64,000 bases of DNA from Henricia sp. BOLD:AAB3569 (lineage: Eukaryota; Echinodermata; Asteroidea; Spinulosida; Echinasteridae). Position numbers and translations under genes: made by a program. Position 1 is the first letter of the stretch. Every line of letters begins with the position of its first letter. Of this stretch, positions 16,101 to 57,062 are shown in pieces. The notes beneath the pieces were generated by a model. That model was given only the letters and a program-made list of their open reading frames with translations, searched no databases and was not told where the DNA came from. Where the stretch lies: positions 372,001-436,000 of the forward strand of contig JBBELK010000372.1 of NCBI GenBank assembly GCA_037783545.1. Reading direction: 5' to 3'.

Positions 16101-19100
16101 CTTTCCATAAAAACGAGAGCCAAATTATTACATCTCGATGTATTTCTAAACATCGCTGTTCGAAGTTACCTTAATTTAAAGCAATTTAGGTACAAACAGT
16201 GTTCTAAACATACAGTTGAAGTCAGAAGTATAAATACAACTGTATACAACCAAGTGTTAAAACTGGTGTGCTTACACCATTTTTGTAACAGTCTTTACTA
16301 AATTCTTGATTTTGTGGAATTCCTCACGTGCATGCAGTACTTAAAACATAGCTTGTACACCTTGCAATGGTTCGGGTAGTCCTGTTTATTATTTTTGGTG
16401 ATGTGGTAGTGGTGTACATGTATTTATACTTCTGACTTCAACTGTATTTTTAACAATTTACAGACATGTCTTAGCGTTGTGGTTTTGATATATTCAAGAG
16501 AATTGTTCAATGAAGTTTGTCTGGGGGGTGGGGGAGAGGTAGTTGGGAGGGGGTGGGGGAATTTTTCAACTTTTGTGATTACATTTTAAGGGGCATCCAA
16601 AGTTGTCAACATTTTCACGGTTCTACAAAGTGTAAGAAGGGGGTCGAAGGCTGCGTAGGACTTTACATGCACTGTAAAATGTTGACTTTTCATGGTAGTG
16701 ACAATTGTTGATAAGTAGTATTGCATTTAAAAGACTGCACCATTTTATTTAATAATTTTGTCATGTTTTGGGTAATATAAACGGGTAAAGGTGTTGTTCA
16801 ATCCACTTGAGTTCAGTGCACTAGACCTACAAGGCCAGACCTGTTGATACAGTTGGCACATACCTGCATGAATTCAAATATCTGTTTACTGCCGCCCCTG
16901 TCTTCTAAGTAGTAACCGTAAGGATAAGAGAAGCGTAGAATGCGTCGAGCCCGAAGTAACTCTGTGATGGATTCCTTGATGAACTTGGTTTCTTCTAGTG
17001 CTGCAGAAATTAGACTATACATGTATCTCCATGGCAATAAACAGATGTATCAATATCAAAAGCTCACTGGGGAAAATACTCTCTCCAAACTAATCACTTG
17101 GCGGCACTCTGTACAGTGGAAGGTACCGTGGCCAATAGACCGATCCAGTAAGCTCCGCCCATTTAGAAATTACCTAGCAACATGCCACACATGTGAAGCA
17201 CGTGTGCAGTAGAGTCGCGTGGCCGCGCCGTGCGTCAGCGTCCACGCCCTGGTCAGCGCGTATTGAAACACGCACACGCACACAGAAACTGCACGCTCGA
17301 AAGCAAAATGTGCACTTAAGTATCCGGTTGTGTGCGTGCACGTACAACACGCCTGCATTACGCGTAACGCGAGCGATCAAACAAAAACATCTCGACACAC
17401 ATCTAGAACGCAGTGAATGCAAAACATAGCAAAACGACCAGCTAATTTGGGTGAGTTTTTCCCGTTTACACAAAAACACATTTATGAAGGAATTAAAAGT
17501 AGGTTAGGATAGTCTTATACAATCCGTTTTAAATCGGCTAGGGTCCTCTGCGCTGATAAAAATTATGTTTATGGTGTTTTTGCGACACTCGTGCTGCATT
17601 TGAGGACTCGGGTAACCAAACATTTTGGTTACCTGAACCTGAGGCTGTGATTGGTCAATTCCAAAATGGGCGGAGCTTACTGGATCGGTCTATTGGTTTG
17701 AGTCGTTTAGTCACAACACATTTAAAAACAAATTTAGTCTGGTCTTTTGGATACAAACTGTGCATATTAAAGTAAGTACGTCAGTAGATTCATTTGATTA
17801 AAACTCAGCATTTTCAAACACACCTGATAAAACAATCAACTGCAGATAAGTAATTTGCCAAGCGTGTTTCATTTTCCCTGTAAAAGTATGGTTTAAAGGT
17901 TCAAGGAAAACATGTTCTAAATCTGTACAAACCCTGCCAAAATTAGCAGGTGGATTTTAATCTTCGTCAGATGAAGAACAATGCATTCACATTAGAAAAT
18001 CTCTTTGTCAGATGAAGCAATTCAAGTATATCAATTCAAGTCGAATCACGCAAGAGGCTAATTATAATAATATAATAATAATAATGAATATTTATATAGC
18101 GCAACGTTTCCACCCTCAAGGGCGCTCAAGGCACTGAAATACAAATTACACACTATTAAAGAAAACTACATTGGTGGGTTTTGAGACATGATTTGAAAGA
18201 GGATAGTGTATCACTTGATCTGATCTGAAAGGGCAATTCATTCCAAAATCGGGGTGCTGCCACTGAGAAGGATCGACTTCCCCACGTGCGACGTGATCTT
18301 GGTTGAAGGAGCAAGAGTTGACTACTAGAGCGTAAAGTGCGTGATGGTTTGTGATAAGAGTGCAGATCCGAGATGTATAATGGAGCCATGCCATTCAATG
18401 CCTTAAAAACAATGAGCATCATCTTGAAGATGATCCGATAATGTACCGGAAGCCAATGGAGCTTGTTTAGGACAGGTGAAATGTGGGAGAATTTTCTAGT
18501 TCGTGTAATCAGACGTGCCGCCGTGTTCTGAATGCGTTGTAAACGTGAAATTTGAACCTGTTGAATTACCTGACGGCCCTGATCGAGAACCTAGTTTCCT
18601 CATTTTAGCCGGTGCCCTACGTAGGAGTGGTTCCTCTAGACTGTGGCTCAGGCCGTGATTCTTGAAGCGCGTGTAGAAATGAATGAAACGATTCAACTCT
18701 TGCATATCGCGATGTTTCTTGTCGGCCTAATGTCAAACCAAAGGATGGGAAAAGGATGACTAAGGGGTTGTCCAAAGTTGTCAACATTTTCACGGTTCTA
18801 CAGAGCGTAGTATTTTTTAACTCCCTCTCCCCGAAATACTACTTTTTTGTCACTACCATGAAATGTCAACATTTTACAGTGCATGTAAAGTCCTACGCTG
18901 CCCTCGACCACCCCCACCCCCAACGCTTTGTAGAACTGTGAAAATGTTGAAAACTGGACGGCCCCTTAAAAAGGAAATTCTACAAATGAAGGATTTTTAT
19001 TTTAAATATACTTAACAAAAACAGAAATGCGCATTTTTGCAACTGCCAATATTTTGCAAATTAGCCACCACAGAGCAGAGTGGCAAATTTTCAAGTGAAA

Positions 19101-22100: not shown

Positions 22101-25100
22101 GTTTGGAGTTTGTTACTAGCCATAGGCAGTTTGCTGCCAGCTCCGTTTCGTTGTCAGTACTGGCCACTACAGTCGAAGGACAAACGTAAAAGGAATAATT
22201 CCATGTTATGGGTGTACATTTGGCAAATGAGACAAATGAGACAAATGCCTTTGAAATGACTTTAATGAAAAGCCCGACGGCTTTATTAAAATTGCTGTGA
22301 AAGGTTTTGAAAGATTTTAATTACTCAGACTTGAGTCAACTTGAGTCCCGATTTGTACCGACTTGACTCGAGTCTCCAACTTCAAATGACTCGACTTGAC
22401 TCGAGTCACAAACAGAAATCACATGACTTAACTCAGACTTGAGTCTGCCAAAAAAGCGAATTAATATTTTTTTTGGTAATAAAATTGCAAATGTAGTATC
22501 TAACGTTTGCCATTTTAGTAACAGAAACATGAGAATGGTTTTAACATGGAACAAGTCTGGCCAGAAGTAGAAAAATATCCTACAGGACTGCCATTTCCTG
22601 TGGTTAGAGTAATTTTGAAATTAGTATGAACAATTTACTGCTGCGACTACTTAAATACTTGACTTGACCAACGTGCCTGTGTACTTCAGAAGGATAACTC
22701 ATGGCAGCCAATTATGCATCAGTACAAGGGTTTTTCCACAGTAAAAGGGGCATTTTGGCAACACAGACCATATTTTCAAGGAAATACCTTTGTCTAGTCT
22801 CAAAATATAAGAAATAAGTTTCAGTTGTTCTGAAGAGATAACTTTGGCCCAAAAAGGGTTACAAATAGTGTGACAACATGCCTTTCTAAAAACCCTGTGT
22901 ACAAATTTTTAATATACGCTCGTGACCGGGATGGACACTTGTGTTACATTTTAGGCCATCCTAGTTACGAGCGTATATTACAAAATGTGTACACAGGGTT
23001 TTTAGAAAGGCATGTTGTCACACTATTTGTAACTCTTTTTGGGCCTAAGTTATCTCTTCAGAACAAGTGAAACTTTTATTTTGAGACCAGACAAAGGTAT
23101 TTTCTGGAAATATGGTCAGTGTTGCCAAAATGCCCCCTTTATCGTGGAAAGACTCCAACCGTGCCTACTTTGTTATGCGTAGATCGAGTGGATAACCTGT
23201 TGCAAATAATCCACAGTTTGGCCTATAGACCGTGGGTTACATCGAAATATTAAACAACATGACCGACGATGCACCAATCAAATGACAGGGAATTATTCAT
23301 GTTTTTATAATGTTGGATCTTACACTCTTCAGGTTTAATCTCAGAAATCTTGTCCATCCATTTCTTCCAGTTTTCACAGCTACACGGCTCGTGAGCATCG
23401 CCGCTACAGTCCCTGGAGGTTGGAGAAATTAAGATTATCACACAATGTAACCGACAAAACATGACATATCACCACAAAAGGGATGTAAAAGTAGCCCCCA
23501 TCAATATAAGGATTTTATACTGAACTGAGATTTTTATTTTTTATGTAAGTCGCCCATTACAAGGCCCACGGGGAAAGGCCACTCGAGGTAAGGGCTACCG
23601 AAGTCGATTACGGAGAAACCAGCGCTTCACGCCGAAACAAGACCAGAATTATCAGTCTCTTTACTACATGAGTGGGGCTGGGAGGGGTAACTAGTCCGAA
23701 TCGAGACAACCAAGTTGCCTCTACCTCTATTATGAGCAAGCATGGTAAAGTGCCTTTCTCAAGGGCACAAGTGCCACAACCTGTCGCGGCCAGGATTCGA
23801 ACCTACATTCTAGTACTGGCACAGGAACATGAGTTCGATGCACCAGATCGCTAGGCCATAACACCCACAAATAAGCTTAAAAACAGGGTTCAAGTAGCTG
23901 AATTAGTTGTGTAGTTCTAGAATTACATCAATTTTAACACCGAGCTGGCCGGTGTTGAGTAGCCGGTTTGAATCATTAAGCAATGGTGACCGCAACTGAC
24001 GAGAGAATGTAATTGATATTTATTCTTCCCCGACACAAGTCAATTAAATTACATTTCTAATACGTTTTATACACATTGACGGGAAACAAACATTCTGGAT
24101 ATTAAGACAGTTTTTAGACTTTGCAAAATGTAAGTTTAAGGTTTTAACTTTTTGATAGGGTACTTGTAATAATTTGATGCCCATGTTATTTCCTCAAAAC
24201 AACATTTTTCGTATATTTTTAGAGAGGATACATGTATTTGTATGAAAAACAATCGTCTCAGTCATCTTTCCTTTACTGTGGAAAGACGCATCCACTATTA
24301 GTTTACTTACCAACAGAAAATGTGTCCCTGTCCACAGTCGACAGCGTGCGATATCGATGGCGGAGTGGAAGGAGTGCTTGCATTACTGGGCCGATGGCCG
24401 TTACTGGAACCAAACGACTTGGAGGGATCCTGCAGTGGCATCTGGACAGCGCGGCCGCAGCCGGCCACAGGACACCACTTGAGCTTGGGGTTGCTCTCTA
24501 CGAATGCCTGAAATCAGATTAATAGACAGAATGTCATGCATTACTGGGCTGATGGCCGTTACTTGAGTCAAACGACTTGAAAGGATCCTGCAGTGGCATC
24601 TGGACAGCGCGGCCGCAGCCGGCCACAGGACACCACTTTAGCTTGGGGTTGCTCTCCACGAAGGCCTGAGATCAGATTAATAGATAGAATGTCATGCATT
24701 ACTGGGGCGATGGCCGTTACTGGAACCAAATGACGTGGAGGGATCCTGCAGTGGCATCTGGACAGCGCGGCCGCAGCCGGCCACAGGACACCACTTGAGC
24801 TTGGGGTTGCTCTCCACGAATGCCTGAAATCAGATTAATATGAATAAGTGATTTTTTTGTTTAGGGATTGTATCGAATAAGATTAATAGATAGAATTCCT
24901 CTGATGTCATGTTTTTTGTCGTTTTGTGTGGTATCATAACTAAAATAGAGAGGTTTTGCAAACCGACGGATACACTTATGCATACGTTCAGCTATCCATA
25001 ACTGTTAGTGGATATTTCTGTGGTTTCGCCAATGCTGTAGGACTCGGGTCCGGTCTGAGTCCGGACTCGAGTCCCGATTTTCAAAAATTGGACTCGGACT

Positions 25101-28100
25101 CGGCTAGTCAGGACTCGGACTCAGGCGGTAAGGACTTGGAGATTTGGGCCGAGTCCATCCGAGTCCAATGAAAAAAAAAATATATACAATATTTTACAAA
25201 AATTACATTATACAGGCGCCGAAAATTATTTGAAGTGTCTATTGTAATATATTTTGGGACCGAAAGTATTTCGAACATGTAAAATAGAAATATGAGAATG
25301 TAAAATAAATCATTTCTACTTGCAAAACCTCTCTATTATCAAGGTGTGACGGTATCAACTGTAAAATTTCAACTTACATTGATATCAAATTGTAGATAGC
25401 GCCGTGCCATCTCACGGGATACCAGGTTTTCAATGGTCTCCACAGGAACCAGCCTGTCGCAGTCATAGCCAGGGCAGATGATGCTGTGGGCATGTCCCTC
25501 TTTGATTTTACCACTGAGGTACCTGAACGGAAGTAAAAATAAATCACAAAATAATGCATTATTATTATTATTAATTTTAAAGCTTAGAATTTGTTCTTTA
25601 TGAACGGAAAAACACCAAATTGACTTCGGGCAGATGCTACAGCCAATTTGTGGTGGATGGTCCACATATTTTTTTCACAAATTTCATATGTCTAGTCCTT
25701 TGACAATGAGTGGATAGAGGCGGTGCCATATTGAATTTCTTTTAACAATTTTAAAATGTGAATAAGGACGCGTCAAATGTAAAATTGTTATCCTGCTAAA
25801 GAATGTTTATTAAAGTCCATTTTGAAAGGAAATGTGAAACCTAGGGGCTTTTCCAAATATCGGCTTAGTCTCCGGCTCCATCTCTATGTGGTTTACATGG
25901 AGCCGGAGCCTGAGCCCAAGTCGAGATTTGGAAAAAGGCCCTAGTCGTTGTGTTGTTCATTACTCATACACTACTAACAATAATTTAGGGATATCGGTAT
26001 TTTGTAAATTTTGGATTTTTTTTCTTCTTTCAAATAACTGTTTTCACCTATTTCTTGTGATAAGGTCGTTTGTCATGCAGATACAATTGTCTAATCATAT
26101 ACAAAATCATTCAAGCAGAATGCATGCCCTCAATGAAATATCTGCGCAGACCCCACAATATCTCTAACTTACAGACTACTAAAGTGTGATGTCAGTTGCC
26201 ATGGTAATTGGTCTAAACATTCGCTGGTAATCAGAAACGCCCATTGGTAAAGCGCAGGGAAACAGTTCACTGGTTTTAGTGTAGACCCCAAAACAATGGC
26301 AACATACAAAGGGTGACGTTCTGTCTCTGGTCAGTGCGCGTGTCGATTTTGGGTTTGCGCGTCAATTTCTTTTTTTTTCTGCGGCAGTTAAAACAGCGCC
26401 TTCTATTGCCACAGCGCCTCACATTTTCTAGACTGATCACCAATCCTGTAGACTACGTAGGGAATGGGAACAATTCTATGTATTTTCCCGGGCAGCTCAA
26501 CCTCGTACTCAAGGCAATAGATTCGGACGATGCTGAAATCTAATGAGAACGAATTATAGCGAGTACGAGGTTGTTTAATCAGCTGCAACAATGGCGGCTA
26601 GTTCTCACGCGACACAACAAGGAATTGCGATTGTGAATTAGAGCGTGTCTGAGCTGAGCTGAATACTGAAATATGCCATTTATTTCCGTGTCCATTGTTT
26701 GCGGAGTGAAAACTCTCAGAACATTGTGTGTTGTGACGGCTCTGCAAGTTTACTATAGGCCTTATTGTGTACGAATCTGTGTGAGATGGAGGGGGTTGGG
26801 GGAAGAGGGGGTGGGGGGGGGGGGAAGAGGGGGAGGGGGAAAGAGGGGGGTGGGGGGTGGGGGGGTGGGGGGTTGGGGGTTGGGGGGTGGGAAGAGGAAA
26901 AACAAAAACCTGCGTCGCCGCATCAATTCCGGAACTTTGGTCTGACCAGAGACAAAATACTTTTTGGGGGGCCTTAGTGCTCTATTGTGAGTTGTGTAGT
27001 ATGCAGTAATTGTTATTTAACCCCAGCTCAGTCAAACACATCCTGAGATCTCAGGGAATTTCCACTCTGCAAAGCAACGTAACAATACCCTGAGGAAATC
27101 CACGCAAATCTGTGAAGTGAGCCGGCTGTTGTCTTGAGCCAACTCACGCCCGAGTCATTTTGATGTAATTTAATCAATTCGGTCATGTTATGCCGAAAAG
27201 AAACAATTTCTATACTTTCCAGAAATTGTATTGGGTTCCGTTCCTTATGACTGTCCAATTCCTACCAAACGTTCAAACGACGATCTTAATTTATTCCGCA
27301 GTTTTTCAAATTAATAACAGGGATGCATGCTGACGAATGTAATGGAACGGATTCCCCAGTATGCTTTAAATAGCAGCCAATCCCCGACGCGGACAACGGC
27401 CAGCATTACCGAGTACATGTATCACATGCATGCACGGTGTTTACAATCTGCGCGCGTTACATTTGAATGCCTGCAATCATGCTGCAATGCACTGCCAAGC
27501 GTCCTGATTGGTCCAGCAGAGGCGACAAGATTTCTGTCGCTTGTCCCACCGCGAAATGGGGCCTGTTTCAACAGGGCCACTGTACGCAGGAGTTAGGGAG
27601 TGCGTTAAAGGGGCACTGTTGCAAGAGGATGAGTCAAACAATGATTACTCGTGAAGCATTTATTACAGGATTACCATTTTTTGACACACCCTGCAGCCAG
27701 AGGTGTGTCAATGTGTCAGTGTAATTTGGTAAAGCTATGTGAGAAAGTACTTTTAAAAAATAACTACATGTACCACAAATTGCAGGATTTCTGCAGTACA
27801 TTTTTTTATCAGTATGAATACCGGCAGACCGTCCAGTGCAAAGCCAAATATTTACAAAAGCATTGTGTTTTAATGTCTATGCTGAAAATTCATCATATTG
27901 TGTTTCGGTTTTTACAGTACATATACCAGCAACAAAAAAAAAGGCACTTTTTTAATGCCTACGGTATACTGAAAACACAAGTTTAAATATCACATGTGTG
28001 TCTTTCTTTTAGTTATCCTCTGGGCAAATCACAATTCATTGTGTTTTTACTGTACCAGCCAAAACAGAAACAAACATACAACTTGCACAATAAGTGACCA

Positions 28101-50347: not shown

Positions 50348-50617
50348 ATGGCGGACACTGGCGATGTTTCGTCCGTTGGTTCCAGGCCGAAATCGGCCCT
50401 AATGCGACGGCATGAACAATTGCAGCGCTGGAAAGGCTCAGAACTCGACAACGAGAAAAATTACATCGATCCTAAGAGAATAAAAGTGAAATTTCATCAA
50501 GGATGTGTGTTTTTGGCGGCTTGTGCGACTGGCGACACGGACGAAGTGAAGAAAATGTTGGGAAAGGGAGCCGATATAAATTATGCAAATGTGGATGGCT
50601 TGACCGCCCTCCATCAA
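50348..50617 (+). CDS. PPP1R12A: Myosin phosphatase targeting subunit (PPP1R12/MYPT family), coding exon 1 (residues 1-90)
   Basis: The ATG lies in AAAGATGGCGG (A at -3, G at +4). After a Ser-rich lead come RRHEQLQRWKGSE, KVKF at residues 46-49 (the RVxF-type PP1 catalytic-subunit docking motif) and VFLAACATGDTDEVKKMLGK then GADINYANVDGLTALHQ, the first ankyrin repeat. The protein targets PP1 to myosin light chain. The exon ends in phase 0 at CAA|GTAAGTAA, the same point as I recall for vertebrate PPP1R12A. No second exon is visible, so intron 1 exceeds 13.4 kb. Invertebrates usually have one MYPT gene, so the A/B/C paralogue assignment is nominal. Confidence 0.93.
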
Positions 50618-51507
50618 GTAAGTAAATGCACTTTACTGCGGCACTGTGATGTGCTTGTGCCCTTGGTAAACTAACCAGAGGGTCTCCCCAGGCATGCATT
50701 AGTGGTTAGATAGGAATTTGCTTTGCGCGTTTTTGATTTTGAGATTTGACCTGCTGCTCATTTGCATAGAGACCACTTCAACATTGAACATGACTGCCCG
50801 TGACAGTTGTGTGCATATCTTATGACATGTATTTAGTGTATGTCATCAACAAGCTGTAACATTTATGTTTACCATGTTTACCAACATAGTAAGAATAATG
50901 GGAATTTCATTTCGGTTTCGTACTTACATGTATTGCCTATGGTATGCCTATTTTGTTTTTCAAGAATAGGCAAAAAAACAATTTTATACGTCATATACGT
51001 ATCCTCGATCCTCCATAATCTGCGCACCTAACGCTTATGCACGCGCGAGCATTGGCCGGCAAATATTAAGGTGAGTGCGTAGAAATAGGACCACGTGGAT
51101 TTAGGAGTACTGACGATACATGTACAAATTGAATAGATGAAGTTACAGTTTGTAAACTTTGTTTACATCAGTGCTTTTCTATAGAACTGAGGGCCGTGTC
51201 CCCCACCTTCAGTAAACCGTGATGTCATTATCCATCAATTGGTTTTTGTTGTTGTTTTCGTTTATTTATTTAATTTACTTATTCATTAATTTTTTCTGAC
51301 TAGCTTTGAAGCAGAATTGCAGAATATCCCGCAACTCCCAGTCTGAGTAACATTCGGTGAACTTCAGTGCTTCGGAGGATTGTTTTATAAAAGGAAGTAC
51401 AGTCCAAGAACCAGTTGATGGACAGCGAAGCATGCACAATAAGTTCATTTTCGAGTTGTGGGGTATTCTGCAATTGCTCCATTTTGACTCAACATCACTA
51501 CTTTTTG

Positions 51508-56815: not shown

Positions 56816-56967
56816 TCTTTCATCTTCAAGATTGGTTATTTCCTTCTAGTGGTGATTAGGCACAATACCAGATATTGCATTTGTTACTTTGCTCAGTTGC
56901 ACTCCCATGTAACACCGAGTAAACAAAATTGGGTTTGTAGGGAAAGCCTGATGGAGTATACCACTGT

Positions 56968-57062
56968 GCCTTATAGCTCAGCTGGTAGAGCCTCTGCCTG
57001 GTGTGTAAAAGGTCTCGGGTTCAAATCCAAATCAGGCCATATAATATTTCTCTCATCCCAAG
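56968..57062 (+). mobile_element. tRNA-like SINE head, second copy
   Basis: GCCTTATAGCTCAGCTGGTA with GTCTCGGGTTCAAATCC, followed by AGGCCATATAATATTTCTCT. Acceptor ends GCCTTAT/AATCAGGC do not pair well, so it reads as a SINE rather than an active tRNA gene. Confidence 0.55.

Follow-up and report, generated by a model that had tools for sequence, protein, structure and literature searches.

The window analysed here is a stretch of 64,000 nucleotides from the sea star Henricia sp., corresponding to positions 372001-436000 of contig C372 in an assembly of 740.7 Mb and 2104 contigs that was searched as a whole. The minus strand of the window carries, from 36383 to 13951, the gene for an ankyrin-repeat Ariadne-type RBR ligase. 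Seventeen exons (e1 and e3-e18) were placed by hand, with numbering matched to exons 9 and 10 of an earlier, sequence-only reading of the same DNA. Exons e4-e18 form a single open frame of 701 codons when the last of three candidate acceptors of exon 10 is used, and an exon is probably missing between e3 and e4. The N-terminal ankyrin repeats are recognized by Pfam (Ank, 2.7e-9; Ank_2, 2.4e-9; Ank_4, 9.6e-10) in a query that joins the translations of e1, e3, e4, e5, e6 and the start of e7 despite the probable missing exon. The remaining protein matches IBR in two stretches (3.9e-18), IBR_1 (1.1e-13) and Ariadne (3.8e-12), while RING1 is weak in Pfam, its match to zf-C3HC4_2 (7.1e-4) being under the cut-off. 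The nearest solved structures in the PDB are chains of ARIH1 (1.4e-31) and ARIH2 (1.1e-29). With ankyrin, IBR and Ariadne regions all present, the predicted protein fits an ANKIB1-type RBR E3 ligase. The name ANKIB1 itself, that of the human protein, is putative and agrees with the domain order.

Exon 9 (25378-25522, minus strand, 145 nt) ends in the donor AAT/GTAAGT, which is common to all the candidate acceptors downstream. The full exon 10 (24311-24507, minus strand, 197 nt, donor TTG/GTAAGT) encodes the start of the IBR domain followed, in mid-exon, by a low-complexity linker that does not align with ARIH1. From the exon coordinates, the introns flanking exon 10 are 554-870 nt and 898 nt long. 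Three other features of the window may be mentioned here. An open frame at 18159-18590 on the minus strand adjoins exon e14 and resembles the end of a non-LTR retrotransposon reverse transcriptase. On the plus strand, an ankyrin-type open frame at 50348-50674 resembles exon 1 of a gene for a myosin phosphatase targeting subunit. The sole match of an Rfam search is a tRNA-Thr-like sequence at 56967-57039, plus strand (30.5 bits against a cut-off of 29); since its surroundings recur at 1344-1448 with 81% identity, it is probably not a tRNA gene but a repeat of tRNA origin.

The end of intron 9 and the start of exon 10 are present three times in a row. Three head-to-tail units of 158 nt occupy 24379-24852 on the minus strand, with start-to-start distances of 158 and 158, each made up of the end of intron 9 with its acceptor and of 129 nt from the start of exon 10. 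Aligned in register, the other two units share 93% and 92% identity with the reference copy, and the blastn pair at an offset of 158 has an E value of 4.8e-125, so the array is not a product of chance. The first exon bases of the copies, named C1, C2 and C3 from upstream to downstream, are 24823, 24665 and 24507, exactly 158 apart, and CAG precedes each of them. The repeat and its spacing are thus as the sequence-only reading described them; its unit of 127 plus 31 nt is equivalent to the 129 plus 29 nt used here, because both sides of the join carry CA.

Each copy has its own distinctive features. C1 has the long form of the intron tail (24824-24909, minus strand), 86 nt from TGACAT to CAG, followed by a 129-nt exon part (24695-24823, minus strand) that has no donor of its own and runs into an in-frame TGA at 24692-24694, 381 nt before the exon 10/11 junction. 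C2 (24537-24694, minus strand) consists of a 29-nt tail, the acceptor and 129 nt of exon 10 (24665-24537) with eight private changes, and it meets its in-frame TGA at 24534-24536, 223 nt before the same junction. C3 (24379-24536, minus strand) also has a 29-nt tail; its acceptor leads into the real exon 10, of which the unit includes the first 129 nt (24507-24379), with one private change, which is synonymous. The tails of C2 and C3 are 57 nt shorter than that of C1; a gap of 9 nt follows TGACAT, and another of 48 nt lies between two TATTAATCT repeats. The join between units reads AGTAATGCA/TGACAT, with AATGCA on the exon side, AAAACA on the intron side and a 2-nt microhomology, CA. The breakpoint of the duplication falls inside the low-complexity linker of exon 10.

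These differences determine what each acceptor would yield. C1 and C2 both finish with GCA and then an in-frame TGA, as had been read from the sequence before, and this stop lies 43 codons after exon 9. C3 alone continues, through 68 further nt of exon 10, to the donor, so that the ligase can be made only via the last copy. Exon 10 would be 513 nt long from C1, 355 nt from C2 and 197 nt from C3. The earlier description of the productive copy as the one nearest the donor holds for the donor of exon 10, but C3 is the copy farthest from the donor of exon 9. A product truncated by the use of C1 or C2 would be predicted to retain RING1 and the first IBR cysteines and to lose RING2. Donor-like GT dinucleotides inside the array score 1.0 at best, and the remainder of exon 10 reaches 1.3, whereas 16 real donors score 1.9-11.8 by leave-one-out, which makes it unlikely that C1 and C2 are extra exons. 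A role for them as extra or mutually exclusive exons was rejected on this score together with the in-frame TGA after each. Skipping of exon 10 was likewise rejected, as it brings a stop at the third codon past exon 9. Since no usable donor is found in the array, it would extend intron 9 and not form a separate new intron.

The acceptors themselves were scored with a matrix built from the 15 other acceptors of the same gene, with leave-one-out; such a matrix is small, depends on hand-placed exons, and ranks sites without predicting their use. C1 scores 9.7 and C3 9.8, each above 11 of the 15 leave-one-out scores, while C2 scores 6.2, above five of the 15. Among 3268 other AG dinucleotides on the strand, 0.4% reach the score of C1 or C3 and 3.0% that of C2. 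The limit of the matrix is apparent from the lowest real acceptor, that of e17, which scores -3.9, and from one AG inside the exon part of each copy that also scores high (9.1, 8.3 and 7.3). The branch-site-like motif TTAAT begins 15 nt before the exon in all three copies. The view that all three acceptors look usable is upheld, with C2 the weaker one.

A DNA search of the whole genome with the array finds two places only, the array itself and C353:838612-838769 on a second contig. In C353, exon 10 is single and runs straight into the rest of the exon, and its intron tail is long and C1-like, with 50 further nt inside. When the exon-10 protein was searched against the genome (740 Mb, all 11 candidates scored), four matches were obtained, namely C1, C2, C3 and the C353 exon, with one TGA in each of the C1 and C2 matches. 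Neither search reveals, anywhere in the genome, a third locus as the source of the differences between copies.

C372 and C353 overlap by about 550 kb. Base 1 of C372 corresponds to C353:414561, and C372:549702 corresponds to C353:1004146, the last base of C353. The overlap is judged from sampled stretches and not from the whole 550 kb; these comprise the contig ends, C372:10001-13000, parts of three 10-kb samples and positions 2345-55803 of the window, and all are collinear, with unaligned insertions within them. Identity is 97.2% over 2461 nt at the start of C372, 95 and 91% in C372:10001-13000, and 99.5% in C372:15450-18525. In the window, collinear hits of at least 500 nt have a mean identity of 92.1% over 40,709 nt, some of them overlapping because C353 has a private tandem duplication of 5.8 kb. 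Identity per hit ranges from 79.6% to 99.96%, in a mosaic. One stretch, C372:187218-190000, is 99.96% identical to C353:622949-625731 and has stretches of 92-97% next to it, a pattern that recombining haplotypes should show. The 5.8-kb duplication (C353:859150-870766, copies 99.8% identical) has no counterpart pair in the first 56 kb of the window haplotype, so haplotype-private tandem duplications do occur in this region.

Between the contigs, exon 9 has no differences in 145 positions and exon 10 has 10, and e4-e18 are open in both, with differences at 48 of 2104 compared positions (42 synonymous and six nonsynonymous). Exon e17 is 3 nt longer in C353. For the exons placed, the splice dinucleotides are intact in both contigs, the e18 donor lying one base beyond the cut used. 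Since the overlap is a dovetail that starts and ends at contig ends, and since identity is a mosaic, the simplest reading of the two contigs is that they would be the haplotypes of a single animal in which the triplication is heterozygous. The other way to account for two loci in the assembly, a recent segmental duplication that gave rise to C353 and so to a second such gene, is highly improbable. A 3-kb probe from outside the overlap (C372:800001) has no long partner among the 40 candidates scored, a list filled by a repeat; it agrees with two genes in so far as the assembly may not keep both haplotypes throughout. However, an overlap bounded exactly by contig ends is expected of haplotype contigs and not of a duplication, and stretches of 99.96% and about 92% identity alternate within it.

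The single copy in C353 might also suggest that the assembler over-expanded a repeat in C372. This is very unlikely, since 12 exon positions distinguish the copies and every copy has private changes; base differences had rightly been taken by the sequence-only reading to speak against a plain assembly error. Moreover, the tails of C2 and C3 have two deletions that are absent from C1 and C353, and the new junction is identical in the two joins; a mis-join of haplotypes would not yield a tail-deleted unit that is found in neither flank. At the DNA level the tandem triplication is real, and it is most likely heterozygous.

The same contig bears on what kind of element the array can be. Three usable-looking acceptors, two of which lead to stops, have an anatomy that permits a regulated on/off switch, in which the choice of acceptor sets the output of ligase, and such a switch was one of two options offered by the sequence-only reading. 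The collinear C353, best read as the other haplotype, lacks the array, so the array is not a fixed part of the gene, which exists without it, and C1 and C2 carry amino acid changes absent from C3. A fixed switch is thus not supported, and a regulated one seems very improbable; the other option then offered, that the copies are simply tolerated, is the one favoured here.

The copies and C353 together vary at 17 positions of the 129-nt exon part, five of which separate C353 from all three copies. C1 has three private changes, C2 eight and C3 one; one of those in C1 and three of those in C2 are nonsynonymous. Pairwise differences over the 129 nt are six for C353 and C3, four for C1 and C3, nine for C2 and C3, and 11 for C1 and C2. 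Since the difference between C353 and C3 lies within the range found among the copies, the differences may predate the duplication, and their use as a clock was rejected for the same reason. The share of C3, one of 12 private changes, is borderline (p 0.054) and weak evidence. In C1 and C2 together, four of 11 private changes are nonsynonymous, where about eight would be expected if there were no constraint (p 0.005-0.011 across the transition biases assumed). That is a strange result for copies that have always been junk; both tests depend on about a dozen changes. Our reading is that the differences may have arisen between working alleles that were then joined by unequal exchange, although a former role of C2 as the working last copy would account for the constraint as well. 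Copy differences appear concentrated in the last 46 nt (Fisher p 0.008); this result was discarded, as the boundary was picked after looking and the flexible linker provides a plain reason.

At the 12 exon sites where the copies differ, C353 carries the base of the two-copy majority in all 12. These sites also bear on the direction of change. An old triplication, from which the single copy reverted by recombination between C1 and C3, would produce exactly the single-copy layout, with the tail of C1 and the exon of C3, and the five sites that part the single copy from all three copies are unpolarised. Nevertheless, the single copy is the plain layout of the gene and needs no extra event, and no trace of C1 or C3 variants is seen in it. 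Such a reversion is barely credible, and the single-copy state is presumably ancestral.

Starting from a single copy, the likeliest order of events would have three steps. A tandem duplication at the CA microhomology would have come first, taking in the last part of intron 9 and 129 nt from the start of exon 10. The tail of the downstream unit would then have lost 9 and 48 nt, the latter between the two TATTAATCT repeats, and the shortened 158-bp unit would have been doubled again to give three copies. The short tail common to C2 and C3 suggests that shortening came after the first duplication and before the doubling.

How the three acceptors would compete may depend partly on the shape of intron 9. 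Most of this intron is enclosed by an 18-bp perfect inverted repeat, with its 5′ arm at 25320-25337 and its 3′ arm at 24944-24961 on the minus strand, and its arms resemble the ends of a small DNA transposon. The predicted fold of the intron (z -5.5, 20 shuffles) places most of the stretch from the donor to C1 in a loop; the stem would cut this distance from 554 to about 160 nt and bring the donor nearer to C1. Intron 9 of C353 has its own versions of the arms (fold z -5.0, 20 shuffles); judged by eye, these have two mismatches and extra interior sequence. Among competing human 3′ splice sites at least 20 nt apart, the upstream site is reported to be favoured, strongly so with short flanking introns (PMC9225289). 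The bias is significantly weaker where the flanking introns are long, no reversal being reported in the findings given there, and the abstract of the paper gives the exon-side rule in a more general form (PMC9225289). The acceptors here are like those human pairs, as outlined there, in that near-equal acceptors compete for one donor and are spaced enough for a first-step choice. The paper deals with pairs in the human transcriptome, and its minigenes tested 5′ splice sites (PMC9225289); the Henricia gene is a natural one with three successive acceptors. Acceptor use is expected to be a mixture. Since C1 is as strong as C3, the human data show an upstream bias and the folded intron would bring the donor near C1, C3 could be the minority product.

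If C1 were used for most messages, the triplicated haplotype would make little or no ligase and be a null or strongly hypomorphic allele, with survival depending on the intact other haplotype. The level scores of C1 and C3 (9.7 and 9.8), the upstream preference in human genes (PMC9225289) and the predicted shortening of the donor-C1 distance by the stem all point in this direction. Against it, the 42 synonymous and six nonsynonymous differences between haplotypes indicate strong coding constraint, though a very recent loss would be invisible to constraint, and no second lesion of the triplicated haplotype is seen in e1 and e3-e18, the exons placed. Use of C1 would also need a 513-nt exon, whereas exon lengths elsewhere in the model run from 54 to 247 nt and C3 is the sole acceptor that gives an exon within this range. 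On balance, a null allele appears unlikely.

The explanation we favour, and regard as probable, is a structural variant on one of the two haplotypes, that is, a segregating tandem triplication that is tolerated and spliced as a mixture. Since each copy retains TTAAT and CAG, intron 9 has three complete-looking acceptors at its end. Use of C3 would turn the two other copies into added intron and yield the normal ligase. With C1 or C2, the reading frame would reach TGA after 43 codons of exon 10, long before the next junction, and the message would be expected to undergo nonsense-mediated decay or to yield a protein that lacks RING2 and the remainder of IBR. The variant would be tolerated because some normal message is made and the other haplotype has a single copy. 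The array, its stops and its single-copy counterpart are present in the DNA as described; the status of the contigs as haplotypes of one animal, the order of events, the splicing mixture and the decay of messages are what we infer from them. A further proposal, put forward with more reserve but still a serious possibility, is that the array is a step of intron growth caught while heterozygous, in which pre-existing allelic copies of the boundary were joined by unequal exchange, three competing acceptors on one haplotype share a nucleus with the single one on the other, decay erases the wrong choices and the variant drifts without being purged.

The closest precedents would be two, a boundary duplication in potato (PMC4974935), which is the nearest, and a scheme in which decay acts as a shelter for new introns (PMC2809761). 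In the potato RdRp gene, as described, a tandem duplication over an intron-exon boundary and a cryptic GTAAG donor made a separate new intron, which is found in two potato species with RNA reads in support (PMC4974935). The Henricia array resembles it in that the duplicated segment takes in the 3′ end of one intron together with the opening (5′) part of the exon after it, that branch site, pyrimidine tract and acceptor are inherited, and that the copies have point differences. It differs in having three copies and no usable donor in them, and in the absence of the copies from the other haplotype, so that an existing intron would only grow. Of what extension of an intron by tandem duplication would entail, adjacent copies spanning the boundary and a known single-copy state are found here, and a new donor is lacking.

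In Drosophila, introns reported to come from tandem duplication start from an AG/GY proto-splice site within an exon, differ between species and include a youngest one judged to be 5-10 million years old; a premature stop is given for 18 of 18 sequences (PMC2891723). Partial duplication of an exon, with removal of the extra copy as intron, is common to these and, as predicted, to Henricia, whose copies, unlike those of exon-internal AG/GY origin, span the intron-exon boundary and seem to be confined to one haplotype. A comparison of Drosophila species led to the proposal that decay of mis-spliced messages lets new introns segregate as neutral polymorphisms (PMC2809761). Stop-bearing products of the array would be removed in the same way, and the variant could drift neutrally. 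The polymorphic stage is a proposal in that work, whereas the Henricia variant, known from DNA alone, appears to be heterozygous. By analogy, the array would fit the scheme at its segregating stage, as an extension of an existing intron. Newly gained introns are reported to segregate in Daphnia populations (PMC4202315), and they are likewise young intron differences within a species; unlike the array, they are whole new introns surveyed across populations. A literature search on duplicated acceptors gave no matching papers, and the titles and abstract openings searched contain no tandem acceptors in ANKIB1.

Tandem duplication over a splice site is one proposed route for the birth or growth of introns. 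The potato and Drosophila cases are differences between species, while in Henricia the duplicated and plain versions seem to be together in one animal. If C3 alone is used, the array is an ordinary tolerated duplication. As both versions would be under the same trans-acting factors, the locus may allow an allelic readout of acceptor choice and of how decay hides its failures.
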